64,000 nucleotides of DNA from Arcticibacter tournemirensis (GTDB lineage: Bacteria; Bacteroidota; Bacteroidia; Sphingobacteriales; Sphingobacteriaceae). How positions within the stretch are numbered: the stretch's first letter is position 1; each line of letters opens with the position of its first letter. Location: the NCBI RefSeq assembly GCF_006716645.1, contig NZ_VFPL01000001.1:3968001-4032000 (forward strand). The letters are read 5' to 3'. Both the position numbers and the translations under genes were made by a program. The notes below the pieces were generated by a model, which saw nothing but the letters and a program-made list of their open reading frames with translations, made no database searches and was not told the origin of the DNA. Positions 6,619 through 46,924 of the stretch are shown here, piece by piece.

Positions 6619-9600
6619 ATGAAGCCGTCGGCAATTATCCTTTTGTTCTTTCTTATAACACCTTTTTCATTTTCGCAGGATGTAAGGTTCAGAAAAATAA
6701 CTTCGAATCAGGGCTTGTCACATAATACCGTATATAGCATTGTGCAGGACGATAAAGGCTTCATATGGCTCGGTACCAGGGAGGGTTTAAACAAGTACGA
6801 TAGCTATAAGATTAAAAATTACTATGTAAAGGGATCAAAACTAGGCGGGTCGGCAAACAAGATAAACTCGCTCTTGAACATCCGGAATGACATTTATGTG
6901 GGCACTGATAATGGATTGTATCTTTACGACTCCCGGAAGGATGATCTATATGCATATCCCGGGTTTGAAAAATTCGCCATCCTTTTTTTGAACCTTCACA
7001 AAAACAATATCTATGTTGGTACTTCAAATGGACTGTATATTATAAAGAGCGGAAAATCCAGGCTTATTACCAAAAGGGATGCCGCTAAATCTATATGTAA
7101 TCTTGCGGGAGGAAGATTGTTGTTGAACATTGGCAACCAGCTGCAAATTATTGATGAAGAAGGTAAAATACAGAGGCAGTTTTCCAGCTCCGCGTTTTCA
7201 TATCTCACAGAACCCGATTTTAGTATTTTCTCTATTTACAAAGATCGCGAAAATAGAATCTGGATATGCAGCAATAAGGGCTTGTTCAGTTACAATCAGG
7301 ACGACGATCGATTTTCCAGAATCCAGTTCTGTACATCAGAAAATAACGAGATAAATACGGTAAGGTCGGTAACAAGGAACAAGGAGAACAAGCTGTTTAT
7401 CGGCACCGAAAATGGCTTGTATGTTTATAACCTCGGCACCGGCGTGTCCGAAAATTATCAGCAGTCTTTTAATTACGACGCTAAAAAACTGAATGACAAA
7501 GCCATATACTCCACCTATACTGCGAATGACGGCTCTATCTGGCTGGGAACTTATTTTGGTGGTGCAAATTTTATACCGCCGGCTAATTTCGGATTCAAAA
7601 GCTTTCTACCCAATGACAGAGGCGATGGCTTAAGCGGAAAAGCAATAAGCCAGATGATGGAAGACAAAGAACGTCGTCTCTGGATTGGAACCGAGGACGG
7701 GGGGATATCTGTTTATGATCCCAAAACAAATTCATTTTCTTATATCAATAAAGACAGTCGCCCATATTACTTAAACATCAATAACGTGCATGCCATACAC
7801 GACGATGGCTACGGAAATGTTTGGGTGGGTACTTTTTTAGGAGGGGTGCACAGGTTCAATACGAAAACGAAGAAAACTACCATTTATATAAATCAGCCTG
7901 ATAATCCCAATTCACTTTCAAACAACCAGGTTTATGGTATTTATCGCGACTCCAGAGGAATGCTATGGGTAGCAACACAGAGCGGATTAAATACTTTTGA
8001 TTACCAGAGAAATTCGTTCAGACTATTTAAAGCAGCGATACTGGGCAAAATGTTCATTTATGATCTAACAGAAGACAAAAATGGCGACATGTGGTTTTGC
8101 ACCAGACAGAATGGTGTTTACAGATATCTGATTAAAGACGATACTCTGATCCACTATACAACGCCAAAGCTATCAAGCAACCAGGTTATAAGCGTCTATA
8201 AGGACACAGAGCATCGCTTATGGTTTGGAACTCTCGATGGAGGCGTTTCGATGTATGATACCGACACCGACAGATTTACCCGCTTCACCATCAAAGACGG
8301 CCTGCCAAACAATAATGTATATGGAGCTTTGGAAGATCAGAACAAAGATATGTGGTTTAGTACTAACCGCGGGCTTTCCAAATATGACGTCAGAAGCCAT
8401 AAATTCACTAATTATGATAACAGGCTTGGCCTGCCATCTAATCAGTTCAACTTTAAATCCTTTTTAAAGTCAAGCGACAAGACCTTATATTTTGGAAGCA
8501 TTAATGGACTCAGCTATTTCTCTCCACAGCAAATTGCTTCAAAGAACCTCTATCTACCCTTAAGATTTACCGACTTTTTACTATTTAATAATAGTGTAAA
8601 AGTTGGAGGCAACTCGGTCTTAAAACAACAGATAGATGATACCGAATCAATAAATTTATCTTATTCGCAAAATGTGTTTACGATAGATTATGCGGCTCTA
8701 AATTATGCAAATCCCGGTAGTGACAGGTTTGCTTACTATTTAGAAGGCTTCGAAAAGGGTTGGAATTATGCAGGATACAAAAACGCGGTTACATACACAA
8801 ACCTCTCACCTGGTACCTATACCTTCCATATAAAAGCTGTAGATGCAGATGGGACAAGACTTAGCGATGAGAGAACCTTAATTATTAATGTTTCTCCCCC
8901 CTTTTATCTTACCAGGCTTGCCTATCTGTTTTATTTCATTTTATTATGCCTGTTAATTTGGGTATATTCTTATTTCATCAAATTCCTGCACCAGAAAAAA
9001 CTTGAAATTCAACTTGAAAGAATTGAAAAGGAGAAGATCAAGGAACTTACCCAGCACAGGCTAAACTTCTTCACTTTTATTTCCCATGAGTTCAAAACCC
9101 CCTTAACCTTGATCCTGGCATCGATAGACCAGTTTTTAGAGAGAAAAGAAGAAAGATTAAAAAAGAACGCCGAATTGTCAATAATCAAAAATAATGCTTC
9201 GCGCTTATTTAAGTTAATTCAGCAATTGATGGAATTCACAAAGATGGAAAACGATCATTATTCGTCACGTATCTCAAGAAACGATATTCTAGAATTGATC
9301 AGGTGTACTCTCTTTTCGTTCAAAACGCTGACAGATGAAAAGGGAATCTCATTAATTTTTAACACTAATCAGGATCAGTTTAACTGCTATTTCGATTCTG
9401 ATAAAGTAGAAAAAGTGCTCATGAATATCATTTCAAACGCCGTTAAAAACACTTTCGAAGGAGAAATAAGCATAGATGTGAATATCCGGACAGATAACTC
9501 CGAAAACACAGCAAAGGTAATTATTGAAATTAAGGATACAGGTATTGGCATGTCTTCAGAAGACCTTAAGAACGCTTTTATTCCATTTTACAGAGCCCGT

Positions 9601-10620
9601 CAGTCAAAAGGAAAAGGAATTGAAGGAAGCGGTATCGGCTTATCATTAGTTAATAGCCTGATCAATTACCTTAAAGGAGAAGTTAGCATTGAGAGCAGGC
9701 TAAACAAGGGAACCTTAGTCAAAGTTTCTATTCCTGTTCTTACTTTGCTGACATCAGAAAATAGTGAAGTAAGCAGCAAGATTAGTGAAGTTGAAACACC
9801 AGCCAACGGACCGGACAAGGGTATTCATAATGCAGAGCAAGACAAAGTAGGTTTAAGTAAATACAAGATTCTTATTGTAGAGGATAATAAAGAACTATTA
9901 AATTTTCTGTCAAAACATTTTTCAAAAAGCCACGAAGTCATCACCGCATTAAATGGTGCTTCTGCTTTTAACAAAATTGTTAAAAATGCACCTGATGTGA
10001 TTATTAGTGATATAAAGATGCCCAAAATGGATGGTATAGAGCTATGCAATAAAGTTAAAAGCGACGCCCGTTTCAATTTCATCCCATTTATTTTACTATC
10101 AAGCGATGCAACCGAAACTTCCAGAGTAGCCGGACTCCATAGGGGGGCAGACGCCTATCTTAACAAACCATTTAATCTGAAAGAATTTGATTTATTGGTA
10201 ACCAATATGATTAAATCGAGGGTTCAGCTTAGGGAACATGTAATCGGCATCGGCAAATTCACACTAAACCACCTCCCCCGTAACAACAAAGATCAGGAAT
10301 TTCTTTCGAAATTAAGCGACGTCCTTGAAAAGCGATTTTCAGATCCGAAGCTTACTGTCGATGATATTGCAAACGACCTAAGCGTAAGCAGGACTTCGTT
10401 ACATTTAAGCCTGAAAAAGCTCATGGATAAAAGCGCCACCGAATTGCTCAACGAATACAGACTAAAAAAAGCGGTGCTGATGCTGGAGAACGACTTACCT
10501 ATTGGCGAAATAGCATACTACTGCGGGTATAGTGATCCGAATTATTTTAGCCGTATTTTCAGAAAACATTATCAGTGCTCACCTTTGCAGTATAAGGAAA
10601 AGGTAACAGGTAACTTATAA
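6619..10620 (+). CDS. Hybrid two-component system regulator of the PUL (propeller sensor, kinase, receiver, AraC)
   Basis: A 1333-residue one-protein signalling chain. A signal peptide (about 1-20) precedes two-component propeller repeats (for example GFIWLGTREGLNKY and NVWVGTFLGGVHRF), then a Y_Y_Y domain. One transmembrane helix lies at about 766-787. The HisKA domain has the H-box FISHEFKTPL with H823. The HATPase shows an N-box (LMNIISNAVKN), DTGIGM and GSGIGLSL. The receiver domain has acidic residues at 1088-1089 and phosphoacceptor D1131 (ISDIKMPKMDG). A C-terminal AraC-type HTH ends in GYSDPNYFSRIFRKHYQCSP. Such proteins sense a periplasmic oligosaccharide and activate the adjacent PUL. 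It diverges from the sulfatase-SusCD operon, which fits that role. Confidence 0.96.
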   Translation: MKPSAIILLFFLITPFSFSQDVRFRKITSNQGLSHNTVYSIVQDDKGFIWLGTREGLNKYDSYKIKNYYVKGSKLGGSANKINSLLNIRNDIYVGTDNGLYLYDSRKDDLYAYPGFEKFAILFLNLHKNNIYVGTSNGLYIIKSGKSRLITKRDAAKSICNLAGGRLLLNIGNQLQIIDEEGKIQRQFSSSAFSYLTEPDFSIFSIYKDRENRIWICSNKGLFSYNQDDDRFSRIQFCTSENNEINTVRSVTRNKENKLFIGTENGLYVYNLGTGVSENYQQSFNYDAKKLNDKAIYSTYTANDGSIWLGTYFGGANFIPPANFGFKSFLPNDRGDGLSGKAISQMMEDKERRLWIGTEDGGISVYDPKTNSFSYINKDSRPYYLNINNVHAIHDDGYGNVWVGTFLGGVHRFNTKTKKTTIYINQPDNPNSLSNNQVYGIYRDSRGMLWVATQSGLNTFDYQRNSFRLFKAAILGKMFIYDLTEDKNGDMWFCTRQNGVYRYLIKDDTLIHYTTPKLSSNQVISVYKDTEHRLWFGTLDGGVSMYDTDTDRFTRFTIKDGLPNNNVYGALEDQNKDMWFSTNRGLSKYDVRSHKFTNYDNRLGLPSNQFNFKSFLKSSDKTLYFGSINGLSYFSPQQIASKNLYLPLRFTDFLLFNNSVKVGGNSVLKQQIDDTESINLSYSQNVFTIDYAALNYANPGSDRFAYYLEGFEKGWNYAGYKNAVTYTNLSPGTYTFHIKAVDADGTRLSDERTLIINVSPPFYLTRLAYLFYFILLCLLIWVYSYFIKFLHQKKLEIQLERIEKEKIKELTQHRLNFFTFISHEFKTPLTLILASIDQFLERKEERLKKNAELSIIKNNASRLFKLIQQLMEFTKMENDHYSSRISRNDILELIRCTLFSFKTLTDEKGISLIFNTNQDQFNCYFDSDKVEKVLMNIISNAVKNTFEGEISIDVNIRTDNSENTAKVIIEIKDTGIGMSSEDLKNAFIPFYRARQSKGKGIEGSGIGLSLVNSLINYLKGEVSIESRLNKGTLVKVSIPVLTLLTSENSEVSSKISEVETPANGPDKGIHNAEQDKVGLSKYKILIVEDNKELLNFLSKHFSKSHEVITALNGASAFNKIVKNAPDVIISDIKMPKMDGIELCNKVKSDARFNFIPFILLSSDATETSRVAGLHRGADAYLNKPFNLKEFDLLVTNMIKSRVQLREHVIGIGKFTLNHLPRNNKDQEFLSKLSDVLEKRFSDPKLTVDDIANDLSVSRTSLHLSLKKLMDKSATELLNEYRLKKAVLMLENDLPIGEIAYYCGYSDPNYFSRIFRKHYQCSPLQYKEKVTGNL

Positions 10621-10653
10621 AAAGCTACTCATTCCCGCTACTTTTCACATGAC

Positions 10654-11640
10654 CTAAGGTTCCGAAATAAGGTATGGACCTTCTTTATTCCACCCAATTT
10701 TCACGTTAGATAAAAACCACGTTTTCCCTTTATCATTATTACCCTGGTAAAAAAGATAGGTTTCACCGTTCTCATCTTCAAAAATCCCGGGATGCCCTGA
10801 CTCGCTCGAATTCCACGTCCCCGGCAAGCCATTACGTAAAAACGGTTTGTCAGAAAGCCGGCGCCAATGAATACCGTCGTCACTCTCTGCTACACCGATC
10901 TGTTGCGGCATGTTGTTATAGCTGCCTGCATAAAACATATAGAGCTTGTTATTCCTTTTTATAATACTTGCACCCTCAATGCACCGGCCTTCCCAATCTA
11001 ACGCAGGAGACAAAATAGATTCATCACTCGCTTGCTTCCAATCCGACCGTTTAAAATCGGTATTTGCCGACGCCGTTGCCACTCCTTGTTTCTGGATCTC
11101 TCCAGCCTTATCGCGGGTGGCAAAGTACAAGAAATAACGCCTCCTGTAAAAGTATACTTCGGCATCGATCGCCCGACCATTGGTCCAGTTACCATTCGGA
11201 GAAAAAATAGGATTCGTTGTATCACGCGTGAAATTAACACCGTCTGCCGACCATGCATGGCAAAGTGCATCTTTAGGTCCATTGCCATATGTTTGATAAA
11301 AAAGATGCACCTTCCCTTCCTTTACAATAGCCCCGGGGGCACAAAGACCGCGCTGTTCATAGCTAGCATGGGGCTTTATTTCGCCGATCTTACTCCAATG
11401 ATACAGATCCTTGCTTTGTGCTATACCGATGTTCCATCCCAGCATACCATCGTTATTGTTTTGAAACATCTGCTTCGAATAATACATCAGATACTTGCCC
11501 CTGAACCTTACAACAACCGGGTCCTTAGCGATCATTATACCAGCCGACGATGTATCTGTATAGTACATCTTTGGCGTATCTTGCGCGTATATGCCTGATA
11601 GTAAAAAACTAAAAAGCAAAGTATATATTAATTTTCTCAT
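10654..11640 (-). CDS. Secreted GH43-like five-bladed propeller glycoside hydrolase
   Basis: A 328-residue protein starting at MRKLIYTLLFSF, which gives a clean signal peptide ending near GIYAQ. An upstream in-frame ATG at 11685 only adds 15 residues before the signal. The three carboxylates of GH43-like enzymes can be picked out: D40 in MIAKDPVVVRF (candidate base), D159 in RAIDAEVYFY (pKa modulator) and E222 in CIEGASIIKRNNKLYMFYA (candidate acid). Blade repeats such as IGIAQSKDLYHWSKIG and IGVAESDDGIHWRRL support a propeller. It could equally belong to a neighbouring propeller family such as GH32 or GH117. It converges on the hybrid regulator (33-base gap) and probably belongs to the same PUL. 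Confidence 0.75.
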   Translation of the reverse strand: MRKLIYTLLFSFLLSGIYAQDTPKMYYTDTSSAGIMIAKDPVVVRFRGKYLMYYSKQMFQNNNDGMLGWNIGIAQSKDLYHWSKIGEIKPHASYEQRGLCAPGAIVKEGKVHLFYQTYGNGPKDALCHAWSADGVNFTRDTTNPIFSPNGNWTNGRAIDAEVYFYRRRYFLYFATRDKAGEIQKQGVATASANTDFKRSDWKQASDESILSPALDWEGRCIEGASIIKRNNKLYMFYAGSYNNMPQQIGVAESDDGIHWRRLSDKPFLRNGLPGTWNSSESGHPGIFEDENGETYLFYQGNNDKGKTWFLSNVKIGWNKEGPYLISEP

Positions 11641-33695: not shown

Positions 33696-34340
33696 TTATT
33701 GATTAGTCAAACAATCAGTTAACTCACGTTGAATGCCAACGCCAACAGCGTCTGGCGCAGGCACTGCGGCGCCATCCTGCAAAACAGGTTTCAGGTAGAC
33801 GCTCAGGGAAGAATCTTTGCCTGTGCGCGATAGAAAAAACAGGTATGCATGAACCGTACATCCCACAAATTCTGTAGGCAGGCTCACACGAAGCCCGGCA
33901 TTCTGCCGTTCGGCCTTTCTCCGTAGTACGAGGAAGATATCCTTCTCCTCATTATAGAGCACCACTACCGCTTCGTCGTCCGACCACGCATACGGAGCCT
34001 CGGCATAGAACCAGTTCACTGTAAGCAAGTCTCCATCGATAGAAGCCTGCGCAGCATAGGCTCTCATAAGCCTCCCTTTGCTCAGCACTACCCTGCTGAA
34101 ATCGATAGCCAGGTTGGGATAATCACCCCGCAGCGCATACGAAATCAGATGACTCACTGCCCCATGATAACCCTGAGGCCGTTTCGACTGCGACGATATG
34201 TTATATGCTGTGTCGAGCAGCACCCTCAGCGGGTTTAAAAAATGTACAGCCATAGCCATCTTTTCCCGGCATTCGAGCTGACGTAACGTAGGCTGACTTT
34301 TGGATTTACTTCTGCGGTTATATTTTCTGTTAATGTTCAT
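33696..34340 (-). CDS. DUF6266-like protein, function unknown (second copy)
   Basis: A 214-residue paralogue of the next gene. Shared positions include the LRQLECREKMAMAVHFLNPL segment (against DKQLEQKMRFSLMVSFLAPL), YPNLAIDFSRVVLSKGRLM (against YPDFAIDYSKIEISRGSLM), and a VVVLYNEEKDIFLVL strand. It lacks the glycine-rich N-terminus of its partner and has a basic one instead (MNINRKYNRRSKSKSQ). No signal peptide or membrane helix is seen. It ends one base before the holin-like gene, so the lysis genes are probably co-expressed with it. The function of this family is unknown. Confidence 0.75.
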   Translation of the reverse strand: MNINRKYNRRSKSKSQPTLRQLECREKMAMAVHFLNPLRVLLDTAYNISSQSKRPQGYHGAVSHLISYALRGDYPNLAIDFSRVVLSKGRLMRAYAAQASIDGDLLTVNWFYAEAPYAWSDDEAVVVLYNEEKDIFLVLRRKAERQNAGLRVSLPTEFVGCTVHAYLFFLSRTGKDSSLSVYLKPVLQDGAAVPAPDAVGVGIQRELTDCLTNQ

Positions 34341-34360
34341 TTCCTTACTATTTGATTATG

Positions 34361-34393
34361 AAAAAAAGAAGGCCGGGATGACCTGTCCCGGCC
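34361..34393 (-). terminator. Intrinsic terminator or attenuator between the two DUF6266-like genes
   Basis: On the minus strand an 8-base GC-rich stem GGCCGGGA / TCCCGGCC is followed by TTCTTTTTTT, a classic intrinsic terminator. It lies 7 bases after the first DUF6266-like gene. Read-through or a separate start would be needed for the downstream lysis genes, so it could set the ratio of the first protein to the rest. Confidence 0.8.
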
Positions 34394-34400
34394 CCCGGCG

Positions 34401-35051
34401 TTAAAGGATCACCACGTTTTTGCCATACGAAGTGGCTGATTTCGTTTTTCCGTTCTCTGAGGTAAAGAACATGAAAACCTCCACGGTATCGTTGCTAAGC
34501 TCTTCAGGAAGCTGAATACTCAACTGCTTATCCGCGCGGGTAGCTTCGCCAAGACTAAGCACATGGAATTTCTGCGTAGTGTCGTAGAGAACAACCATCG
34601 CTTTATCGGCAGCGAAAGCATTCGCGTCATTCACCAGTCCCGACCAGCTCAGCGTAACTTCACCCGGAGCCATCGATTTAGCCGTAAGGCCAACGGGTTT
34701 CATTAAACTGCCCCTGCTGATCTCTATTTTGCTGTAGTCAATAGCGAAGTCGGGATAAACACCTGTAATGGCTTTCGATTTGAAGAGATTGAAATGAAAG
34801 CCCAGGTTATACCCGGTGAGGCGTGTAATGTCCTGGCTGCTGTAGCTGTCCTCCATCAGGTTCTTCAGGGGGGCAAGGAACGATACCATCAGCGAGAACC
34901 TCATTTTCTGCTCAAGCTGCTTGTCGGTTGCCGGCTTGTTGCTGCGGCGGGCCAGGCCCCTGATGTAATCAATACTGCGCCAGTTTGCGCCTATCACACT
35001 TCCGGCTTTGCCAGAAAATCCACCGTTTGCACCTTTTATAATTTGTCCCAT
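34401..35051 (-). CDS. DUF6266-like protein, function unknown (first copy)
   Basis: A 216-residue protein that begins MGQIIKGANGGFSGKAGSVI, the glycine-rich opening typical of DUF6266 proteins in Pedobacter and relatives. It continues with KQLEQKMRFSLMVSFLAPLKN and YPDFAIDYSKIEISRG and two later beta-rich segments with Ig-like spacing (SLGEATRADKQLSIQLPEEL, TVEVFMFFTSENGKTKS). No signal peptide, membrane helix or catalytic motif is visible. It is the first gene of the putative DUF6266-holin-endolysin-spanin set and is followed by a strong terminator. It could be a structural or secreted component; the family has no assigned function. Confidence 0.8.
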   Translation of the reverse strand: MGQIIKGANGGFSGKAGSVIGANWRSIDYIRGLARRSNKPATDKQLEQKMRFSLMVSFLAPLKNLMEDSYSSQDITRLTGYNLGFHFNLFKSKAITGVYPDFAIDYSKIEISRGSLMKPVGLTAKSMAPGEVTLSWSGLVNDANAFAADKAMVVLYDTTQKFHVLSLGEATRADKQLSIQLPEELSNDTVEVFMFFTSENGKTKSATSYGKNVVIL

Positions 35052-37533: not shown

Positions 37534-38088
37534 ATGGAACAAATGATCAGCCTTTACCAGCAGCAAATGTCCCGGCTTGCCCTGGCGGTCAGAAATCACG
37601 TCCCGCTGATAAAACGGACTTACAGCAAACACCTGTTGCTGCTCGGACCCGAAACAAAGAGCACCACAGCCTGCATCATCAGCAAGGGACTTGCCAAGCA
37701 ATACTACCGCGATATAGAAGGCAACGAAGTGATTACAGGGTTCTGGAGGATGAACGAAGTGATGCTTCAGCCCGAAAATTTCTTTCTCGAAGTAGAAGCT
37801 CCAGAGTATACCGAACTCCTCGAAGAAACAGAACTCGATATGTTCAGCCTTCCCGCCCTGCTCGCCGCAGAAACCAGTAACCCGCAGCTCCGGCTAAAAG
37901 AAACCATTATCCACATCAGCCGCATGCGTCAGCGGATACATCACGAGCTCAAAAACCGCGACACCGTTACCGCCCTTAATTACCTCGATCAATTATATCC
38001 TCTCAACCGCATCTCCCGCAAGGACATTGCCTCCTACCTTGGCAAAGCACCCGGCAGCATCAGCCGGGGCAGGCGGCGCGATTTGTAG
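37534..38088 (+). CDS. Crp/Fnr-like regulator (cyclic-nucleotide-binding fold)
   Basis: A 184-residue protein of the type common in Bacteroidota: a cNMP-binding-like beta-roll (LLLGPETKSTTACIISKGLA, then KQYYRDIEGNEVITGFWRMN and EYTELLEETELDMFSLP) and a C-terminal winged HTH (LNRISRKDIASYLGKAPGSI, then SRGRRR). An ATG three codons in is an alternative start. It precedes the LanKC-like gene by 120 bases on the same strand and may control it. The 252-base gap upstream separates it from the divergent MocR gene and shows no clear promoter consensus. Confidence 0.85.
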   Translation: MEQMISLYQQQMSRLALAVRNHVPLIKRTYSKHLLLLGPETKSTTACIISKGLAKQYYRDIEGNEVITGFWRMNEVMLQPENFFLEVEAPEYTELLEETELDMFSLPALLAAETSNPQLRLKETIIHISRMRQRIHHELKNRDTVTALNYLDQLYPLNRISRKDIASYLGKAPGSISRGRRRDL

Positions 38089-38208: not shown

Positions 38209-39513
38209 ATGGAAAAAGCATTCGAAATATCACTACTCAGTTACGGCCCTATGCTGCAAAAGCATGATATCGCTTACCACGAACGGAATAACATGCTCGT
38301 GCACGGAACGCCAGGCAGCAGTAACGCGTGGATACTATACCTTTCGGTGAGGACCCTCGATACCGTTTTGCTGCTGGAGAACCTGCTGCCTTTATTAAAA
38401 GAAAATAACACTCCGTTCTCTCTCATCAAAAACCAGTTGCTGCAATACCAGCTGAATGCAGGGGCATTCGGCGAAGAGCTTGTTGGGAAGGTAATCACCC
38501 TTTATCCCAAAACAACGCAGGATGCAGTGATCCTTGCCGGCCAGATCAATGCCCTAAGCAGCAATTATAGCGGTCCGGTTGTTCCCGGAGCACAGAGGAT
38601 CGGCAAGATCCTGTATGCCCCTAACCCAGAAAAGCTTCCTTTCCACATTGACGCAGAATACCGGCATAAGACGAAGCGGCCAGCCATATTGGGCAGGTAC
38701 TATGTGCCAGTTCAGATGATCAGGAGTTCGGCCAAGGGCGATATTTACAAAGGCGTTAACCTAAAAGGCTGTGCCTTCAACTGGTGCCTCATCAAGCAGG
38801 GAAAGCCCTCGGCCCTTGACGATCATTTCGGGCGCGACATGAAAGACCGGCTGCTCTGGCAGAGGGAAGTGCTCGAAGATATCGCCGGAAATGTTCCAAC
38901 TCCCCGCTTCCTCGACTTTTTTGAACGCCGCGATCACTCTTACCTCGTAATGGAATATGCCGAAGGCGAACCGCTGGGACAGAAAGTAACCGAATTGCTG
39001 AAAGGAAGGACCTGGTTAGCCCTCAACACCGAAGAAAAGAAACAATTACTCCGCTGGTACCTCGGGGCGCTCGAAATAGCCGGTAAGGTCCATCAAAAAG
39101 GCTACGTACACCGCGATATCTCGGATATGAATTTCATTATCTTAAACGACAATCGCCTGTGCGTAATCGACTTCGAGCTCTCCTACAGTCTGTCCAGGCA
39201 GAAGCCAGCCGTTCCGTTCGTGCTGGGCACCAGGGGATATATGGCCCCGGAGCAGGTACAGTATGCGGTGCCTTCCGTCAAGGAGGACGTTTACTCGCTG
39301 GGGGCCTTGTTATGTTTCATCCTCACCGGAAAACAACCTGCCGAGTTTATAGAAGCACAACCCCAAAAGACGCGCCCGAAATTACAGGGCCTTGCAGGGC
39401 CGGGCACGTTAAGCAACATCGTTCTGAAATGCCTCGACCCGCAGCGGGAGAAAAGACCTGAGGTTAAAGAGCTGAGGGAGCAGGTGCTAAATTATTACTG
39501 TCTTTTAAACTGA
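38209..39513 (+). CDS. LanKC-like protein: class III lanthionine synthetase N-terminal domain plus kinase, no cyclase
   Basis: A 434-residue protein in two parts. Residues about 1-190 resemble the N-terminal (lyase) region of class III lanthipeptide synthetases, including AWILYLSVRTLDTVLLLENL and GKVITLYPKTTQDAV. Residues about 190-430 are a kinase: lysine in NWCLIKQGKPS, the segment YLVMEYAEGEPLG, catalytic loop HRDISDMNF with D303, metal motif VIDFELS with D321 (the DFE form typical of LanKC) and GTRGYMAPEQ. Full LanKC proteins have about 350 more residues forming a LanC cyclase, which is absent here, and the stop is followed by another gene after 6 bases. It may phosphorylate and eliminate Ser/Thr on a peptide, or be a repurposed kinase. 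A MauE-like gene and a small secreted protein follow. Confidence 0.8.
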   Translation: MEKAFEISLLSYGPMLQKHDIAYHERNNMLVHGTPGSSNAWILYLSVRTLDTVLLLENLLPLLKENNTPFSLIKNQLLQYQLNAGAFGEELVGKVITLYPKTTQDAVILAGQINALSSNYSGPVVPGAQRIGKILYAPNPEKLPFHIDAEYRHKTKRPAILGRYYVPVQMIRSSAKGDIYKGVNLKGCAFNWCLIKQGKPSALDDHFGRDMKDRLLWQREVLEDIAGNVPTPRFLDFFERRDHSYLVMEYAEGEPLGQKVTELLKGRTWLALNTEEKKQLLRWYLGALEIAGKVHQKGYVHRDISDMNFIILNDNRLCVIDFELSYSLSRQKPAVPFVLGTRGYMAPEQVQYAVPSVKEDVYSLGALLCFILTGKQPAEFIEAQPQKTRPKLQGLAGPGTLSNIVLKCLDPQREKRPEVKELREQVLNYYCLLN

Positions 39514-39519
39514 TAAACC

Positions 39520-40026
39520 ATGAAAATAAAACAATGGATCCTTGAAATCTCAGCATACCTGGCGGCCCTGCTGTTTTTGTATACAGCCGCCAGCAAGCTC
39601 GCTGATCTGGCGAAATTCCAGCATCAGCTCAACAACCAGGTGTTCGGCAACCAGTATACGCCGTTTCTTACCTACGCGATACCGCTGTCTGAACTGGCCG
39701 TTACCATTCTCCTGGTATGGCCGAAAATCCGGGTGTACGGTTTTGCAGTGTTCACATGCATGATGGCGGCATTCACCCTCTATGTTGCACTGGTGACCGC
39801 AAATTACTTTGACCGCATTCCCTGCGGCTGCGCCACGGCCTTCGAACACCTTTCCTGGAGCTGGCACCTGGCAATCAATATCTTTTTCACGCTGCTTGGC
39901 GGCGGCGGTCTTATACTTCAATTAATAGAAAACAAAACCCGGGTACAGGCCGGGGCCTCAAAATATTCTTTGCGCGAAGATCAGGAGAAAGCTGAAAACC
40001 TGCAGAAAAGAGTAAGCACAAGTTAA
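39520..40026 (+). CDS. MauE/DoxX-like redox-associated membrane protein
   Basis: A 168-residue protein with four membrane helices (about 10-27, 47-67, 73-93 and 112-133). The MauE-type cysteine pair C102-G-C104 sits in DRIPCGCATAFEHLSW, at the start of the last loop. In methylamine-dehydrogenase loci MauE helps form disulfides in the enzyme's small subunit; Bacteroidota relatives are often next to small DUF6520-type proteins. It starts 6 bases after the LanKC-like gene and ends 18 bases before the small secreted protein, which has two cysteines. A role in thiol or disulfide handling of that protein is inferred. Confidence 0.85.
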   Translation: MKIKQWILEISAYLAALLFLYTAASKLADLAKFQHQLNNQVFGNQYTPFLTYAIPLSELAVTILLVWPKIRVYGFAVFTCMMAAFTLYVALVTANYFDRIPCGCATAFEHLSWSWHLAINIFFTLLGGGGLILQLIENKTRVQAGASKYSLREDQEKAENLQKRVSTS

Positions 40027-40044
40027 ACTACTTAAAAAAAAGTC

Positions 40045-40365
40045 ATGATTGCTAAAAAAACGACTCTCATGGAGAGGGTACGGATTGTTTTTACGGTTTT
40101 AATTACAATCCTGGGATTCGGGGGAGCAATGGCAGTGCAGGGCGGTGCAAAACAGGCCGACCAGAGCTACCGGTACATTTCCCAAACGTCCGGTCATTAC
40201 ATCGTTCAACAGGCACCGCTGACTGACGGAACTTACCGCTGCAACGACGCCCAGACTATTTGTACGGTCCAGTCGTCTTCCAGTCCTCAAATGGATGGAA
40301 CCCAGTACAAGCTGGACAAAAATGATGCTTCGGTGAGCCTCGGGACTTTCCAAAGCACCAACTAA
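40045..40365 (+). CDS. Small exported two-cysteine protein, DUF6520-like
   Basis: A 106-residue protein. The N-terminus (about 9-32) is a signal-like helix (RIVFTVLITILGFGGAMA). The mature part is rich in Ser, Thr, Gln and Tyr and has exactly two cysteines, C66 and C73 (TYRCNDAQTICTVQSSSS). Size, layout and position next to MauE match small Bacteroidota proteins of the DUF6520 type. In this operon it could be the substrate of the LanKC-like kinase/lyase (many Ser/Thr plus Cys) or a disulfide-bonded partner of MauE; neither is shown by the sequence. A strong hairpin follows. Confidence 0.7.
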   Translation: MIAKKTTLMERVRIVFTVLITILGFGGAMAVQGGAKQADQSYRYISQTSGHYIVQQAPLTDGTYRCNDAQTICTVQSSSSPQMDGTQYKLDKNDASVSLGTFQSTN

Positions 40366-40422: not shown

Positions 40423-41913
40423 CTACTTTTTCAGCGCCCGGATAATGGTCGCCGCCAGTATTTCAGGTCCGCCGCTATACAATTCCTCCATTTTACCACT
40501 GTAGATCTTCCCCTTCTTATCGATCAGAAATGGCCGCGGATAGGCCGTAATTCCGTAATGTTTTATTACCCGGTGCAGGCTTCCCTGCCCGCCGGTATAT
40601 ACGTTCAGCACTTTTGAAGAGGTATAGGATCCGCTTCTTAATCCATTCAGCCACTTTTCCCGGGTGCGGTCCACTGAAACAGAAATGAAGACGACGTCCG
40701 GGTTCTTCTCAAACTGCTGTTCCACTTTCGAAACCACATTTTTATAATAAGCGGCACATCCCCCGCATCCCGTAAACCAGAAATCAACAAACACCACTTT
40801 CCCCCTGAAGTCACTCAACCGGATCGCCCTCCCCGATGTATCGGGAAGCAGAAAGTCAAAAGCCGGGGTTCCGGGGTTCAAATGCGACCTCAGTTTGCGG
40901 AGCTCTCCGGCATAAAACGCGTCGGCGACCAGGCTTACCGCATGCTCTACCGTTTTTTCCGGCAGAAATTCATTATTGTTCAGCAAAAAAATGGTCAGCA
41001 GCTTATCCCGCAGCAGGCCCGGAGGGTAGGTACCTGTCAGCCTTTTCAGCATATCCGTGCTATTGTGCTTTTCCCCACTGATTCCGGCATCCCTTTGAAT
41101 AATGAACTGAGGGAATGATGCTGACAGTGCGATAACCGTATCAGGAAAAAGCGAGTCGGGATACCGCTTGCCGGATACCGAAAGCGAGTCGCGGTACTCC
41201 CCGGTTTTCACTTTTAGCAGCTCCAGCCTGCCCACAAAATCGGCGCGCAACAAATCGTATGCCATCCGGCTCAGGCTGTCGCGGCTTTGGTCTATCAGTG
41301 TTAAGCCTGCATGTATAAGCCCGTCATAATTGGAACCTCCCCTTTCAGCCAGTTTGTCGAGCGCATACCGGATGCGATATTTAGCCGCACCGCGTCCTGA
41401 AAATTCCAAACGATACTCCTTTTGGTATTTGGTACCGAAGGCCTCCACTTCGGGGACCATTCCAAGTCCCGAGGCCCTGACCAGATGTTCCTCAGGCCTG
41501 TAAGAGGTATCCTTTTCAGCCCGCAGCACCACATCATCACCCGGCTCCATAAGGTACATGCTGATGATCTGGATAAACTCACGCAGCTTACCGGCCCTGC
41601 TGTTCTCCAGAAGGGAAAAGTATCCGGGACGGTCAAGAGATGGAATCCGGAACACGAAATACCCGGCGCCCTCCCGTACCGGGTAAGCCTCTGTATGCTC
41701 CTGGTTTAAGTCCGTTACATCTGTAAAGGTATGCCTGAAACCCACGTACCTGATGGTATCCTCCGCGCCTGCCTCAGGGAGATACACGCGAATCGAAGCC
41801 CCCTTTGAAGCCGCGCTGCCTGGCTGCCCGCTTAAGGCGAACGGAAGGCAGCACAGGCTGTAAGCAACCAGAGCTTTGCTTATTAAATGGATCTTTATCA
41901 TGCTCCTTTTCAT
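40423..41913 (-). CDS. TlpA/AhpC-TSA family thioredoxin-like protein of a SusCD operon
   Basis: A 496-residue exported protein with a signal peptide ending near ALSGQ. The N-terminal 340 residues are an accessory domain of unknown function. The C-terminal thioredoxin fold includes GTPAFDFLLPDTSGRAIRLS, GKVVFVDFWFTG and the active site C383-G-G-C386, then the cis-proline region ITAYPRPFLIDKKGKI. Such TlpA proteins are often encoded with SusC/SusD in Sphingobacteriaceae and act as periplasmic disulfide reductases. It overlaps the susD stop by one base (TAATG), so it is the last gene of the susC-susD-tlpA operon. Confidence 0.92.
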   Translation of the reverse strand: MKRSMIKIHLISKALVAYSLCCLPFALSGQPGSAASKGASIRVYLPEAGAEDTIRYVGFRHTFTDVTDLNQEHTEAYPVREGAGYFVFRIPSLDRPGYFSLLENSRAGKLREFIQIISMYLMEPGDDVVLRAEKDTSYRPEEHLVRASGLGMVPEVEAFGTKYQKEYRLEFSGRGAAKYRIRYALDKLAERGGSNYDGLIHAGLTLIDQSRDSLSRMAYDLLRADFVGRLELLKVKTGEYRDSLSVSGKRYPDSLFPDTVIALSASFPQFIIQRDAGISGEKHNSTDMLKRLTGTYPPGLLRDKLLTIFLLNNNEFLPEKTVEHAVSLVADAFYAGELRKLRSHLNPGTPAFDFLLPDTSGRAIRLSDFRGKVVFVDFWFTGCGGCAAYYKNVVSKVEQQFEKNPDVVFISVSVDRTREKWLNGLRSGSYTSSKVLNVYTGGQGSLHRVIKHYGITAYPRPFLIDKKGKIYSGKMEELYSGGPEILAATIIRALKK

Positions 41914-43286
41914 TACCGTTCGTTTTGTTCCATGGGGTTATACTTCAGCTCATTTTCAGGGATAGGGTATACATACCTCGGGTCTCCCGGATCAAGCGAA
42001 TACTCCTGCCCGTTGACCCTGCGGGTAAGGCGTTTAGCGAAACGCGGATCAGGGTTGAGCCGCCTCAGGTCTTCCCACCGCAGCTGCCCGGTAAAGGGAA
42101 GCTCCTTCCGCCGCTCATTGATAATGAGCTGAAGCGCTGAAGTGGCATCTGCGGCAGAATAGGGCTCAAAGGCACCAGCGGCAAAACGATGTCCGAGCAG
42201 GTCGTTGAGTACCGACAATCCGCCCTGGATATCGTTCATCCTCACTTTAGCCTCGGCGTTGATCAGGTACACTTCATTGGTGGCAATGCCGGCAAACGGG
42301 CTGAAGTTACCGGTATAGGAACCCTTAAAGGTGATCTTCCCAGCCCCGTAGTCGCGGAAGAATATCGTCTTCCGGAGATCTCCGCCGGCATACTGGTTGT
42401 AAAGGGCAGGATCGGCAATGGCGTACCAGTCAACCGTGATAATGCCATAGTTCACGCTCTCAGCGTACAGGAGGATTTCGGACGGACGGCCGGAGACCAC
42501 CGGGAACTGCCTGGAATTGGACACCGTCAGGCCCTGAAAATCATACAGGTACTTGCGCTGCTGCAATACCTTCGAGGAGTATTCCAGCGCTTTGTCATAA
42601 TTGCCCATCGTGAGGTACACCTTGGCCAGCAGCGCCTGCGCAGCGATCCCCGAGGGGCGCGTCAGTTCAGCAGGCAGCAGCGGCAGCAAGCTTTCGGCTT
42701 CCAGCAAGTCCTTCAGTACCTGGCCGTAGCTCTCGCTGACCTTCGGGCGGGATACCTTCACATTGATATCCGAAGTGAGCAGCAGCGGGATGCCCGGGTC
42801 GGACGCCGCTGTTTGCGGATCATATGGCCGGGCAAAAGTCTGGAGAAGTCCGTAAAACGAAAAAGCCCTGAAAAAGAGGGCCTGCCCCTTCACCCGGTCC
42901 CACTCCGCCTGGTTATCGGGCGCCACCGCCACTTTCTGAATTCCGTCGAGCACGATATTGGCATAGCTGATCCGCTGATATGCATAGTTCCAGTCGGAGG
43001 ATGGAGCCCCTTCATAGATGTCCTTCTTCCAGATATAAGCATTCTGCTCGGTGAGCGTTACGCTTTTCCAGTTCGCATCCGTAACATAGTAGTTATCTGC
43101 GCCCACCAGGCCGATTGAGGGATAATAGCGGAACATCAGTTCGTAGTCGAGCAGGGCCTGAAAGTCGCTCAGCTTTACCGGCACCAGGTCGTTCTTATTC
43201 TGTTTAACATCCAGCCAGTCGTCTATCTTGCTGCAGCCGCTAAGCAGGACCAGCACCATCAGTAAAAGTATCTTGTCTGTTTTCAT
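41913..43286 (-). CDS. susD: SusD/RagB-family surface lipoprotein
   Basis: A 457-residue protein with a lipoprotein signal (VLVLLSGC, then SKIDDWLDVKQ). SusD features include QALFFRAFSFYGLLQTFARP and ALLAKVYLTMGNYDKALEYS in the TPR-like region, and the C-terminal family motif INERRKELPFTGQLRWEDLR followed by RRLN. It is 9 bases downstream of susC and overlaps the TlpA gene by one base. It should bind a ligand at the surface and deliver it to the SusC barrel. Confidence 0.95.
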   Translation of the reverse strand: MKTDKILLLMVLVLLSGCSKIDDWLDVKQNKNDLVPVKLSDFQALLDYELMFRYYPSIGLVGADNYYVTDANWKSVTLTEQNAYIWKKDIYEGAPSSDWNYAYQRISYANIVLDGIQKVAVAPDNQAEWDRVKGQALFFRAFSFYGLLQTFARPYDPQTAASDPGIPLLLTSDINVKVSRPKVSESYGQVLKDLLEAESLLPLLPAELTRPSGIAAQALLAKVYLTMGNYDKALEYSSKVLQQRKYLYDFQGLTVSNSRQFPVVSGRPSEILLYAESVNYGIITVDWYAIADPALYNQYAGGDLRKTIFFRDYGAGKITFKGSYTGNFSPFAGIATNEVYLINAEAKVRMNDIQGGLSVLNDLLGHRFAAGAFEPYSAADATSALQLIINERRKELPFTGQLRWEDLRRLNPDPRFAKRLTRRVNGQEYSLDPGDPRYVYPIPENELKYNPMEQNER

Positions 43287-43295
43287 CGTTAAAAA

Positions 43296-46200
43296 TTAAA
43301 AGGAGGCTTTAACACCGAATGAGAAGGTACGGGGCGACACGAAATCGTAAGAGGGAAAATCGGGGTCAATGTCCGTTTTGGTGGCTTTCCAAAGGATTCC
43401 CAGGTTGGCGGCATACATATAGAAGGACAGCTTCCTGCTGAGCATGTAAGTCAGGCTGACGTCCTGCAGCCGGATATGATCGCCCTTTTCGATGTTTACC
43501 TCCGCGAACCTGTAAAAGTCGCTCCTGTTGTTATTCGAAGGATAAACGGCAGAAGGGACACTGGTGAAGAGCTCATCGCCCGGCTGCTGCCAGCGGTCGC
43601 CGAATCCGGCACGCGGCATGCTGATCACGTCGGCATAGTTGAGCGACGTGGTTTCTTTGCGGAAGAAATAGCCCAGCCTGAACAGGATATTGACCGATAC
43701 AGACCACTTTCGCCAGGAAAGCGAGTTCATCACCGAGCCGTAGATCTTTGGTTTGGAGGATCCGCTGTAGACCAGGCTGTCGGCAGGGGTCGTGGTAATG
43801 ATCTTCTCCCAGTCCCTGCTCTCCTCCCCGTTCAAAACACCAACCGGATCGCCGGTTTCCGGGTCGAGCCCTCTCCAGGTGTAGCTGTAAACGCCGAACA
43901 GCGATTTACCGGTTACCGGGATCAGAAAGGAGGCCTGCGTGAGCTGCGTATTGTTGTACGACTGGTCAAAGGCGGTGACCTTGTCGGATGCGTAGCTGAA
44001 CAGGACGACCGACTTCCAGTTCCATTTCCCTTTCAGGTTCACCGTGTTAAGAGTAAGGTCCAGTCCTTTGGTACTTGTACTGGCGCCATTGCCCCTGAAG
44101 GACGAAAAACCCCGGGAGGGCGCAAGCGGAATGTCCTCGATCAAGTCCTTCCCCTCTTTCCGGAAGAACTCTACCGTCCCCGAAACGCGGTTGCCGGCAC
44201 TTTCAAAATCCAGTCCGATATTTACATTCTTCACCCGCTCCCAGCTTAAGCCGGGGTTTGGCGGCCGGTTCACTACCGAGTATGGCAGGCCCAGGACGTT
44301 ATTGCCGATATACCGCGCCGTAAGCAGGGCGCTGGCATTATACACGTTGCCGTTATACCCGTAGCTGGCCCTCAGCTTCAGCAAGGGCAGCAGGCCCGAA
44401 TGATAGAAAGCCTCGCGGCTGATCGTCCAGCCCATTCCGGCAGACCACAAAGGGGTGACCTTGTCATTGGTTTTCACCCCAAAAATATTGGCCCCGTCCT
44501 GCCGGGCGCTTGCCGTCAGCGTATACCGGCCCTTGTAGGTATAGCCCATATTGGCGTAATAAGAGACATAGCGGTTGACCGTGCCGGGTACAAGGCTGTT
44601 CAGGGCAGGCAGCACGCTTGATCCGGAGGGGTTGGTGGGATAGGGATTCTTGAAATCGAGGTTGGTAACCGAGGTGCCGTATTCATTGTCGTAGCCGTAA
44701 TAGCTGCGGTCATAGCCATCCGTTTTGCTTTCCTTCAGTTCAAATCCCATCAGGCCGTTCAGGGCGTGCTGCCCGGCAAAAAGATGATCGTAGTTCAGCT
44801 GGCCCCTGAGGTTGTAAGAGGAGAGCTCGGATTGCCTCAGGTTCAGGATGTCGCCTTTGGGGAAGTTATAGGTAATCAGCCCGGTACTGGTATTGATGGA
44901 AGCAAACCGGTTGATATAGTTCCTCACCTCGTAGGACTGCTGAAGCTGGAGGTTCCTGGACGACCCCGACTGCCGCTCCTGCTGGTAGAGCAACTCCGAG
45001 GTAAAGCCGGCGCCGATCGTGTACTTCAGGCCGGCCCTCAGCAGCAGGTCCTGCAGGCGGCTGGTATTACCGGCAAGGTTCAGCTCTTCAAGCGGGCGGT
45101 AGCTCCAGTCGGGCAGCCCCCTGGCCTCCATGCTCTCCTTATACCGCTGCCGGTATCCCTTGATTACCGGCAGGGGGCTGCCGTCCTCAGCGGCAAGCCG
45201 GGCATAAGGAAAAATGGTATTGTACTTTCCGCCTGCGGCAAACGTCCCCATAAAGACATTGTTATTATTGTCGCTGGCGAAGCGGGAATACAGGATCCCG
45301 GCGGTAATTTCTAATTTATCGAGCGGCTTATAGGTGCTCAGGGAGTTCAGCGTTACCCGCTCGTTGCCGTTCCTTACCAGGTAACTCCGGTTGCGGTCGT
45401 AGCCGGTGGACAGGGTGTAAGAGAAGTTTTTACTGCCGCCTCTCAGGGCCAGGGAATATTGCTGGTTTATGCTTTTCTGATACATGTATTTCATGTAGTC
45501 CCTGCGCACATCCTGTTCCCTCAGGACTGCGGTTGGCTGCTCCTTTTCGGTGTCGGAAAGCTGCTGGTTTCCCAGGATCTCGATAAGCGGCGAAACCACC
45601 GGGTAGCCGGAGCTGTTTGTCAGGTCGGAATTGAAATAGCCTTTTCCGTAAAGTGCTGTTTCGGCATCGATATAGTCGGAAGCGCTGATGAAGTTGCGGC
45701 TGTAGTACAAATCCGGTTTCTCCGCCACCGTCAGGTTGCTGTTGAAGCTGATGTGCAGGGGCTGGTTCGCCCTTCCTTTTTTGGTGGTTATTACCACCAC
45801 CCCGTTTCCGGAGCGCGAACCCCAGATGGAAGCTGCTGCCGCATCTTTCAGTAAGGTGATGCTTTCTATATCGTTCGGGTTGATGTTCTTGATATCCCCT
45901 TCATAGGTAAAGTTGTCCAGTACGATCAACGGGTCTGCCGCCCCTTTTGAAGTGCCGTTCGTGAGCAGGGTGCTTCGCCCCCGGATGTTGAAGGGTTCGG
46001 AGCTTGATGACTGGTTGGTGTTGAATAATACCCCGCTGGCTACTCCGTCCAGCCTTTCCAGGACATTGGTGGAAACCCGGCGGTTAAACAGTTCGTTATT
46101 GATTTGCACAAAACTGCCTGTTGCCCGTTCTTTGGGGATCTGCTGGTAGCCGGTGCTGACGATCTGCACTTCATTGAGCTGTGTACTGTCAGGGCTTAGC

Positions 46201-46625
46201 GAAACAGAAAGGAACGTGTGCCCTGGTTTCAGGGGGATTTCCTGGGGCTGGTAGCCGATGAAGGTAATAATCAATGTGGGGTTAGCGAAGGGGGCTTTGA
46301 TTTGGAAGGTCCCCTCCTTACCTGAACTGGTGGCAAGCGTGGTGCCTTTTAGTTTGATGATGGCGCCGGCGAGCCCCTCTCCTTTTTCGTCGGTGACTTT
46401 GCCGGAGATGGTTTGAGCGGACTGGGCGTAGGTATCGACGACGGCCATCAGCGAGAAGAGGATGATGAGGAAGAAATAAAAGAGAAGGATGAACTTTCCC
46501 TGTGCGGAGCTGTCATCAGGACTGGTTTTCTTTTTACCAGGCTTTAGCAGCCACGATCGGATATTGAGAATGTAGTAGGTAAGCCAGGGGCAAAAGAATC
46601 CCCTTAAGCTGTTTTTTGCTTTCAT
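43296..46625 (-). CDS. susC: SusC/RagA-family TonB-dependent transporter
   Basis: The ATG at 46625 gives 1109 residues; an in-frame ATG at 46679 would add 18. A long basic cytoplasmic lead (about 45 residues) precedes the hydrophobic signal core (FILLFYFFLIILFSLMAVVD, then TYAQ). A carboxypeptidase-D domain (ISGKVTDEKGEGLAGAIIKL) comes next, then the plug (NEVQIVSTGYQQIPKERATG, PLIVLDNFTYEG, KDAAAASIWGSRSGNGVVVI) and a barrel ending in SFGVKASF. The plug opening STGYQQIPKERATGSF is the variant common in SusC proteins paired with TlpA. It forms an operon with susD and tlpA and should import an unknown nutrient. Confidence 0.94.
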   Translation of the reverse strand: MKAKNSLRGFFCPWLTYYILNIRSWLLKPGKKKTSPDDSSAQGKFILLFYFFLIILFSLMAVVDTYAQSAQTISGKVTDEKGEGLAGAIIKLKGTTLATSSGKEGTFQIKAPFANPTLIITFIGYQPQEIPLKPGHTFLSVSLSPDSTQLNEVQIVSTGYQQIPKERATGSFVQINNELFNRRVSTNVLERLDGVASGVLFNTNQSSSSEPFNIRGRSTLLTNGTSKGAADPLIVLDNFTYEGDIKNINPNDIESITLLKDAAAASIWGSRSGNGVVVITTKKGRANQPLHISFNSNLTVAEKPDLYYSRNFISASDYIDAETALYGKGYFNSDLTNSSGYPVVSPLIEILGNQQLSDTEKEQPTAVLREQDVRRDYMKYMYQKSINQQYSLALRGGSKNFSYTLSTGYDRNRSYLVRNGNERVTLNSLSTYKPLDKLEITAGILYSRFASDNNNNVFMGTFAAGGKYNTIFPYARLAAEDGSPLPVIKGYRQRYKESMEARGLPDWSYRPLEELNLAGNTSRLQDLLLRAGLKYTIGAGFTSELLYQQERQSGSSRNLQLQQSYEVRNYINRFASINTSTGLITYNFPKGDILNLRQSELSSYNLRGQLNYDHLFAGQHALNGLMGFELKESKTDGYDRSYYGYDNEYGTSVTNLDFKNPYPTNPSGSSVLPALNSLVPGTVNRYVSYYANMGYTYKGRYTLTASARQDGANIFGVKTNDKVTPLWSAGMGWTISREAFYHSGLLPLLKLRASYGYNGNVYNASALLTARYIGNNVLGLPYSVVNRPPNPGLSWERVKNVNIGLDFESAGNRVSGTVEFFRKEGKDLIEDIPLAPSRGFSSFRGNGASTSTKGLDLTLNTVNLKGKWNWKSVVLFSYASDKVTAFDQSYNNTQLTQASFLIPVTGKSLFGVYSYTWRGLDPETGDPVGVLNGEESRDWEKIITTTPADSLVYSGSSKPKIYGSVMNSLSWRKWSVSVNILFRLGYFFRKETTSLNYADVISMPRAGFGDRWQQPGDELFTSVPSAVYPSNNNRSDFYRFAEVNIEKGDHIRLQDVSLTYMLSRKLSFYMYAANLGILWKATKTDIDPDFPSYDFVSPRTFSFGVKASF

Positions 46626-46924
46626 TTTATTGCGTAAAGGTTGTTGAGTGATGGAATAAGAAATAACGGCCGAACTCACCGTGGAAAGCGAAAAAGGGTT
46701 AGATGGGATTTCTCGGTTTGCGGATAAAGAGAATGTCGAACTGGGTACAGGTATTGTGATAGTAATGCCCCGGGCTTTTCCATCGCATACGTGGCCTGAT
46801 TATATTCCTAAAGAGATTTTTATGCGTTTTAATGATGACGGGTGGAGAAGTAAGGATTCTGCTTTGTAATTGTGAGGGGCTGAATCTGGTGACAAGAAAA
46901 ATCCGGTTGGAAAGAGACCGAATA

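Follow-up and report, generated by a model that had tools for sequence, protein, structure and literature searches.

A LanKC/LanL-type kinase with a probably inactive lyase domain and no cyclase beside a MauE, mini-protein, TlpA and SusC/SusD module in Arcticibacter tournemirensis

LanKC synthetases such as ThurKC and RamC, and LanL synthetases such as CuvL, are built in a shared order in which a lyase-type domain of the RamC_N family precedes a kinase of the DFE type. The part of PMC7268733 consulted places most of the reported LanKC and LanL proteins in Actinobacteria and Firmicutes. Here we describe a locus of the Bacteroidota species Arcticibacter tournemirensis, carried on a 64,000-nucleotide stretch of contig NZ_VFPL01000001.1 (positions 3,968,001 to 4,032,000, hereafter the window), in which a 434-residue protein shows the same domain order. 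Unlike LanKC and LanL, the window protein lacks equivalents of the ThurKC residues K65, K94, D152 and R163, has no LanC cyclase domain, scores far below the LanL and LanKC profile cut-offs, and has as its partner gene one for an exported mini-protein with two cysteines, accompanied by a gene for MauE. We consider it probable that this protein is a Ser/Thr kinase from the LanKC/LanL lineage that has lost its cyclase and retains only a dead lyase, and that it serves as an accessory in a SusCD/TlpA/MauE module devoted to a disulfide mini-protein.

A second relevant system is the maturation of methylamine dehydrogenase, which likewise combines MauE with a thioredoxin-like partner, MauD, and a small exported disulfide protein. 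In the locus described here, by contrast, the partner is a TlpA encoded beside SusC and SusD, and the small protein has a single Cys pair. The part of PMC7794033 consulted offers the speculation that MauE helps to form the disulfides of the methylamine dehydrogenase beta-subunit, and gives the role of MauD as unclear.

Closer in outline to the window protein are two plasmid-encoded lyase-kinases, from Enterococcus faecium pKO1 (435 residues) and Salipiger (523 residues), which likewise join a lyase-type domain to a kinase and leave no room for a cyclase. Their lyase residues, however, are intact, and no MauE or SusCD is annotated in the stretches viewed. Because an intact lyase site occurs there in the absence of LanC, a true cyclase-less dehydratase may exist in the E. 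faecium pKO1 context. The E. faecium gene (L110:2740-4047) adjoins genes for a prolyl oligopeptidase and an ATP-binding cassette (ABC) transporter; the Salipiger protein is encoded at L104:3839-5410.

The gene for the kinase-type protein occupies positions 38209-39513 of the window on the forward strand. Pfam profiles place RamC_N (PF25816) on residues 36-133 (32.1 bits, cut-off 27, E 9.9e-8) and score the kinase domain at 83.1 bits (Pkinase), and the protein gives no LANC_like match. A preliminary description made from the sequence alone had proposed an N-terminal segment of the LanKC type and a DFE-type kinase in a protein that stops before LanC, and the significant match of the N-terminal domain bears this out. 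The degenerate RamC/LanKC-type lyase domain, here called the pseudo-lyase, spans approximately residues 1-155 (38209-38673, forward strand), and the LanKC/LanL-type Ser/Thr kinase domain takes up the remainder (38674-39513, forward strand), the boundary between them being approximate. The corresponding NCBIfam scores are 196 bits for LanL (cut-off 650) and 108 bits for LanKC (cut-off 575), neither of which reaches the threshold; three LanC-bearing relatives score 254-265 and 155-198 bits, respectively. The best sequence match in the PDB is 8car (E 2.4e-23), which we take to be CuvL, a class IV LanL. An APH match in the kinase (residues 287-325) lies just at its cut-off, at 23.5 versus 23.2 bits.

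Other assignments for the protein were considered and set aside. A class V LanK/LanY pair finds no counterpart, in that nine scanned proteins give no HopA1 match and the kinase is of the Pkinase type. A cyclase acting in trans was rejected as well, since the sole other LanC match in the genome spans only profile positions 4-138 of 350; it lies in a 210-residue open reading frame (ORF) about 254 kb away, beside transposase-like and glycosyltransferase-like ORFs. Among the 25 of 34 PADLOC matches viewed there were kinase matches (PD-T4-6, MAD6) and nothing specific.

In protein searches, relatives turned up in 4 of 120 near genomes at E 1e-20 and in 33 of 400 genomes across the order at E 1e-25, the own genome being included in both counts. 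Of the 25 related loci from a contig-level search, L003 is close; in the others the similarity was low and confined to kinase-type residues. The 39 places of the order-level search outside the own genome, together with G002, the window and L003, make up the 42 loci compared here. A scan of the phylum detected RamC_N in 3 of 395 genomes, again counting the own genome; G696, taken up below, is among the three.

The state of the lyase site was assessed by aligning 37 members of this clade (window included) with eight plasmid-borne references picked by similarity. The residue table omits L070, which is broken, and L064, L071, L097 and L003, in which the kinase ORF is shorter than 400 residues. One reference is annotated as a class IV LanL, three as LanC-family proteins and two as protein kinases, and two carry no annotation; those from S. 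clavuligerus, Embleya and Rhodococcus were taken as whole open frames rather than from a start codon. ThurKC residues were mapped through the conserved WKxHxS, FK, GK, SD and YR motifs. In the part of PMC10604976 consulted, the ThurKC variants K65A and R163A show no turnover, K94A leaves the peptide unmodified, and D152A and H67A are impaired. The equivalents of K65, H67, K94, D152 and R163 in the window protein are I42, Y44, S71, A128 and a gap. Across the clade, K65 is kept in none of the 37 members, and K94, D152 and R163 are kept in one member each, all three in L073. The references, in contrast, keep K65, H67, K94, K117 and R163 without exception and D152 in seven of eight, the eighth having Glu. 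The kinase/lyase chemistry put forward in the preliminary description finds no support in this comparison. As part of the preferred reading, and with the same joint confidence, we regard the lyase domain as probably a catalytically dead scaffold.

Two members of the clade stand out in this region. L073 (G065, 8284-10983) bears a LanC domain, has no MauE, and keeps K94, D152, R163 and H67 with Ile in place of K65; it is a possible intermediate in the loss of lyase activity. L064 encodes a kinase without any N-terminal domain.

Key residues of the kinase site are preserved throughout. The beta-3 Lys, the HRD Asp, the Asn and the DFG-type Asp are present in 37 of 37 clade members, and the window protein keeps K196, D303, N308, D321 and E323, the last two belonging to the DFE motif, with Q218 at the position of the alpha-C Glu. 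Between L093 and L094, the ratio of nonsynonymous to synonymous substitution rates (dN/dS) is 0.21 for the kinase domain, 0.20 for the LanC-like domain and 0.35 for the pseudo-lyase, with few changes behind the last value.

The proteins of the clade end in three different ways: with nothing beyond the kinase, with a LanC-like domain, or with a membrane helix followed by an extracytoplasmic domain. Pfam scans of 38 of them gave Pkinase in 38, RamC_N in 34 (E 0.001) and LANC_like in 22. At the CH zinc position, neither Cys nor His occurs in any of the 22 LanC-like domains; class III cyclases are likewise devoid of zinc ligands. The hydrophobic helix and extracytoplasmic domain are fused to the kinase in L072, L077, L078 and L098, and in the broken L074 from the genus of the window. 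The extracytoplasmic domain is encoded by a separate gene in the short-kinase loci L066 and L069 and in the kinase-less locus L131, where it matches no Pfam family. A profile of this domain found one PDB chain only (E 1.1), and NCBIfam gave two of three such domains weak matches, none better than E 0.04.

In a phylogenetic tree the clade is separated from the references as a single group (support 100/98). The short form of the window clusters with L068 and the membrane forms (98/93), and a further three short forms join the LanC-type set (99/94). Since short forms fall into two groups, the tree suggests that LanC was lost at least twice, provided that the ancestor carried LanC as the references suggest. 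According to the part of the literature consulted, the lyase-kinase piece of ThurKC is inactive alone, and isolated domains of other synthetases are reported to be active. The loss of LanC would therefore not be telling by itself.

The gene that follows the kinase after 6 nt encodes a 168-residue MauE-family membrane protein (39520-40026, forward strand; PF07291, 95.9 bits, cut-off 27) with four hydrophobic segments by a hydropathy rule and a PCGC motif, whose Cys codons lie at 39823-39825 and 39829-39831 (forward strand). A further 18 nt downstream begins the gene for the DUF6520-like mini-protein of 106 residues (40045-40365, forward strand), which has an N-terminal hydrophobic, signal-peptide-like stretch and two Cys, 66 and 73 (codons 40240-40242 and 40261-40263, forward strand). 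The tight operon of these three genes had been recognised in the preliminary description, and it stands to the exact coordinate. Convergent to this operon, on the reverse strand, are genes for a TlpA-like thioredoxin-fold protein with a CGGC motif (40423-41913; Thioredoxin_8 50.8 bits, AhpC-TSA 48.9 bits), a SusD-like lipoprotein (41913-43286; SusD-like_3, 115.8 bits) and a SusC/RagA TonB-linked outer-membrane protein (43296-46679; TIGR04056, 503.6 bits, cut-off 368). Upstream of the kinase lies a gene for a probable Crp/Fnr-like regulator of 184 residues (37534-38088, forward strand). This ORF has no Pfam match of its own, and the assignment follows from position and similarity grouping; the same slot in relatives holds Crp-type genes, two of which (L116:7674-8243 and L061:8184-8765) carry cNMP_binding (PF00027).

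This arrangement is conserved. MauE is present in 41 of the 42 loci, and in 38 no more than 100 bp separate it from the kinase. By rule, a small exported ORF with two Cys follows the kinase in 39 of 42 loci, compared with 63 of 1499 ORFs of like size in the background. Inspection found the mini-proteins that the rule missed in L074 and L097, which leaves only L073 without one. A convergent TlpA gene is present in 33 of the 42 loci, in one case 7 kb off. When the next eight ORFs were examined in 41 loci (L003 omitted), convergent SusD and SusC genes were found in 35 and a convergent TlpA gene in 34. The proposed link to redox handling also gained ground, as PCxC occurs in all 41 MauE proteins of the loci and CxxC in all 33 TlpA proteins. 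Two related genes deserve note. The first, in L146 (G696, from another family of the class; 6981-8384), is a solitary gene for a 467-residue kinase of this type, in whose vicinity neither MauE nor a mini-protein was recognised. In the second, on a contig of a metagenome-assembled genome (L003:5538-6829), a gene for a MocR-type regulator leads directly into the kinase gene at a point midway along it, as the result of either a deletion or a join made in assembly.

Invariant columns among 34 aligned mini-proteins are confined to the two Cys; no Ser or Thr is invariant. This alignment omits L061, L071, L081, L084, L088 and L096, which were added for the composition comparison below, as well as L073, where none was found, and L097, which was missed by the rule and enters no statistic. 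DUF6520 (PF20130) likewise comprises small proteins, and 29 of the 34 match it at E 0.1 or better; the window member scores 17.1 bits, under the gathering cut-off of 25.4.

Mini-proteins of this family also occur without a kinase. A profile search of 100 relatives gave 26 matches in 16 genomes, of which three are kinase-linked and three unrelated (L134, L135, L143). No kinase gene lies within about 1.5 kb on either side of 20 of the 23 DUF6520-like sites, and MauE adjoins 17 of those 20. The genome of the window itself holds such a set at C1:232836, composed of a Crp-type regulator, MauE and a mini-protein that face TlpA and SusD. Kinase-bearing genomes contain 23 further kinase-less loci (3 kb viewed on each side), 19 of them with MauE. 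The base unit is thus a MauE and mini-protein pair that faces SusC and SusD and mostly TlpA, and the kinase is an extra placed just upstream of mauE. The motif 'LLQRVRI' before the signal stretch was dropped as a candidate leader, since it is also present in L125, which lacks a kinase, and almost so in L121. In L183 (4748-5800), three tandem ORFs for two-Cys mini-proteins lie near one MauE gene, without a kinase.

In the mechanism that we find most likely, MauE, with its PCxC motif, and TlpA, with its CxxC motif, would form a thiol relay between membrane and periplasm and thereby govern the redox state of the Cys pair of the mini-protein, on the model of the role speculated for MauE with the small subunit of methylamine dehydrogenase. 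SusC and SusD would serve as a dedicated outer-membrane partner of the mini-protein. The kinase would act in the cytoplasm and phosphorylate without elimination, with the groove between pseudo-lyase and kinase used for docking only. The first candidate substrate would be the precursor of the mini-protein, and the second the regulator or some other component of the module.

The composition of the mini-proteins bears on the choice of substrate. We compared 39 kinase-linked mini-proteins with 29 kinase-less ones from the same genomes, with L003 omitted and L198 dropped as a non-family member; this genome-matched comparison supersedes an earlier one of 34 versus 15 that was not so matched. The mini-proteins of L137, L139, L142 and L144 belong both to the 20 kinase-less sites and to the 29-member set. 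Thr makes up 13.3% of kinase-linked versus 9.4% of kinase-less mini-proteins and is higher in 19 of 21 genomes, whereas Asp plus Glu make up 6.0% versus 9.4% and are lower in 18 of 21. Such a rise in Thr with a loss of acidic residues fits the replacement of acidic charge by phosphate.

A number of observations weigh against the preferred reading. The paired difference in Ser plus Thr is not significant (p 0.3), nor is that in Ser alone. The contrast in Thr and acidic residues comes mostly from the LanC-type group (Thr 15.2%, Asp plus Glu 3.3%), and the short type of the window (11.1%, 8.4%) and the membrane type (11.0%, 11.0%) lie near the kinase-less values. Mini-proteins within a group also share descent, so that p values overstate the contrast. 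Two loci from the genus of the window, L121 and L125, have no kinase in view, and yet their mini-proteins match that of the window at 43% identity over 99 residues and 39% over 82, and their MauE proteins at 54% and 67%, each over 140. The corresponding genomes (G005 and G004) give no kinase match at E 1e-20, and these kinase-free homologs argue against the mini-protein as an obligatory substrate. Within the kinase protein, H67 is retained in 14 of 37 clade members and K117 in all 37 (K94 in window numbering). Gln replaces the alpha-C Glu in 36 of 37 members, the window protein included, and in one reference, so that kinase activity, though likely, is to be viewed with caution. A single-sequence AlphaFold2 model of the protein reached a mean predicted local distance difference test score of 35.7, and its structure lends no support to a dead lyase site. 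The redox relay and the SusCD roles are argued purely from family knowledge, and a Crp- or AraC-type gene directly upstream is recognised in only 18 of 41 loci.

Because the LanC-type group and shared descent drive the contrast in composition, the mini-protein is a first candidate only, and a signalling role carries real weight. Here the kinase would regulate the module through the Crp-like protein, the MauE tail or another cytoplasmic target, the mini-protein would not be the substrate, and one branch of the clade would be a receptor kinase. The fused membrane helix and extracytoplasmic domain, and the occurrence of that domain as a separate gene, are what such a role would lead one to expect, as are the regulator genes upstream of the kinase and the mini-proteins that occur without kinases. 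The LanKC lineage, however, is centred on neighbouring peptide substrates, as is known from the family, the rule finds the mini-protein gene still adjacent in 39 of 42 loci, and kinase-linked mini-proteins show the gain of Thr and loss of acid. On balance we judge this alternative plausible, if less probable than an accessory kinase in a disulfide mini-protein module.

A more specific proposal, which we regard as rather unlikely, is that a lanthipeptide-synthetase lineage has been halted at phosphorylation, such that stable phospho-Thr or phospho-Ser would be placed on a secreted disulfide mini-protein that has its own MauE/TlpA relay and SusC/SusD pair, with receptor-kinase forms besides. If true, this would be a phospho-mini-protein system built from the machinery of ribosomally synthesised and post-translationally modified peptides (RiPPs).

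The preliminary description favoured a lyase/kinase that dehydrates Ser and Thr of the small protein in a cyclase-less, lanthipeptide-like RiPP system, which now appears highly improbable. Homology to RamC_N and to the kinase, together with the adjacent small, Ser/Thr-rich protein with two Cys, speaks for it, and family knowledge of LanM indicates that a kinase site could in principle take over elimination. Nevertheless, essential lyase residues are missing in nearly all relatives, homologous sets occur without a kinase, and the loci hold no conserved peptide exporter, a C39-type cluster being found in 6 of 41. Of its broader suggestion of a RiPP-like or protein-modification system, the RiPP-like part is countered by the signal-peptide-like N-terminus of the mini-protein, by the kinase-less sets of L121 and L125, and by the lack of an invariant Ser or Thr; the other part stands to the extent that the kinase may phosphorylate the small protein. 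Least probable of all is a functionless relic of a lanthipeptide synthetase gene in the course of being lost, to which the broken kinase genes beside intact MauE in L070, L071 and L097 (possibly assembly errors) and the absence of the kinase at 20 of 23 profile sites would point, but against which the invariant kinase motifs of 37 sequences, the dN/dS values given above and the close spacing to MauE in 38 of 42 loci speak.

The preferred reading, an accessory kinase with a dead lyase, describes a lineage in which the kinase persists as first the lyase site and then the cyclase is lost or swapped. The annotation 'lanthipeptide' would therefore mislead genome mining. Open-licence literature listings for Pedobacter with LanKC, SusC with MauE, the lyase domain, and Bacteroidota with SusCD showed nothing on this system, and no paper on DUF6520 or NVEALA was found in the same literature. 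Among the matches listed for MauE with lanthi-, one work, decRiPPter, was pertinent as far as the part consulted goes. These searches suggest that the locus type formed by MauE, a two-Cys mini-protein, TlpA, SusD and SusC is without a description in the open-licence literature searched. The locus type occurs more than once in some genomes.

Several neighbouring genes deserve mention. Mobilisation genes lie directly upstream of the kinase in L072, L087 and L092-L096; those of L092 include, on Pfam evidence, genes for a relaxase, a type IV coupling protein and a ParA-like ATPase. Near 15 of 41 loci there is a cluster of which one member is confirmed as RteC. The C39-peptidase ABC exporter-like genes near the kinase locus are L068:5651-7840, L060:5145-6593 and those of the same cluster in four other loci; two members of the cluster were scanned. 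An Rfam scan gave no match at gathering score. Elsewhere in the window, at 33696-35051, two similar-looking ORFs stand in tandem, and the second (34401-35051, the sole one scanned) matches DUF6266.

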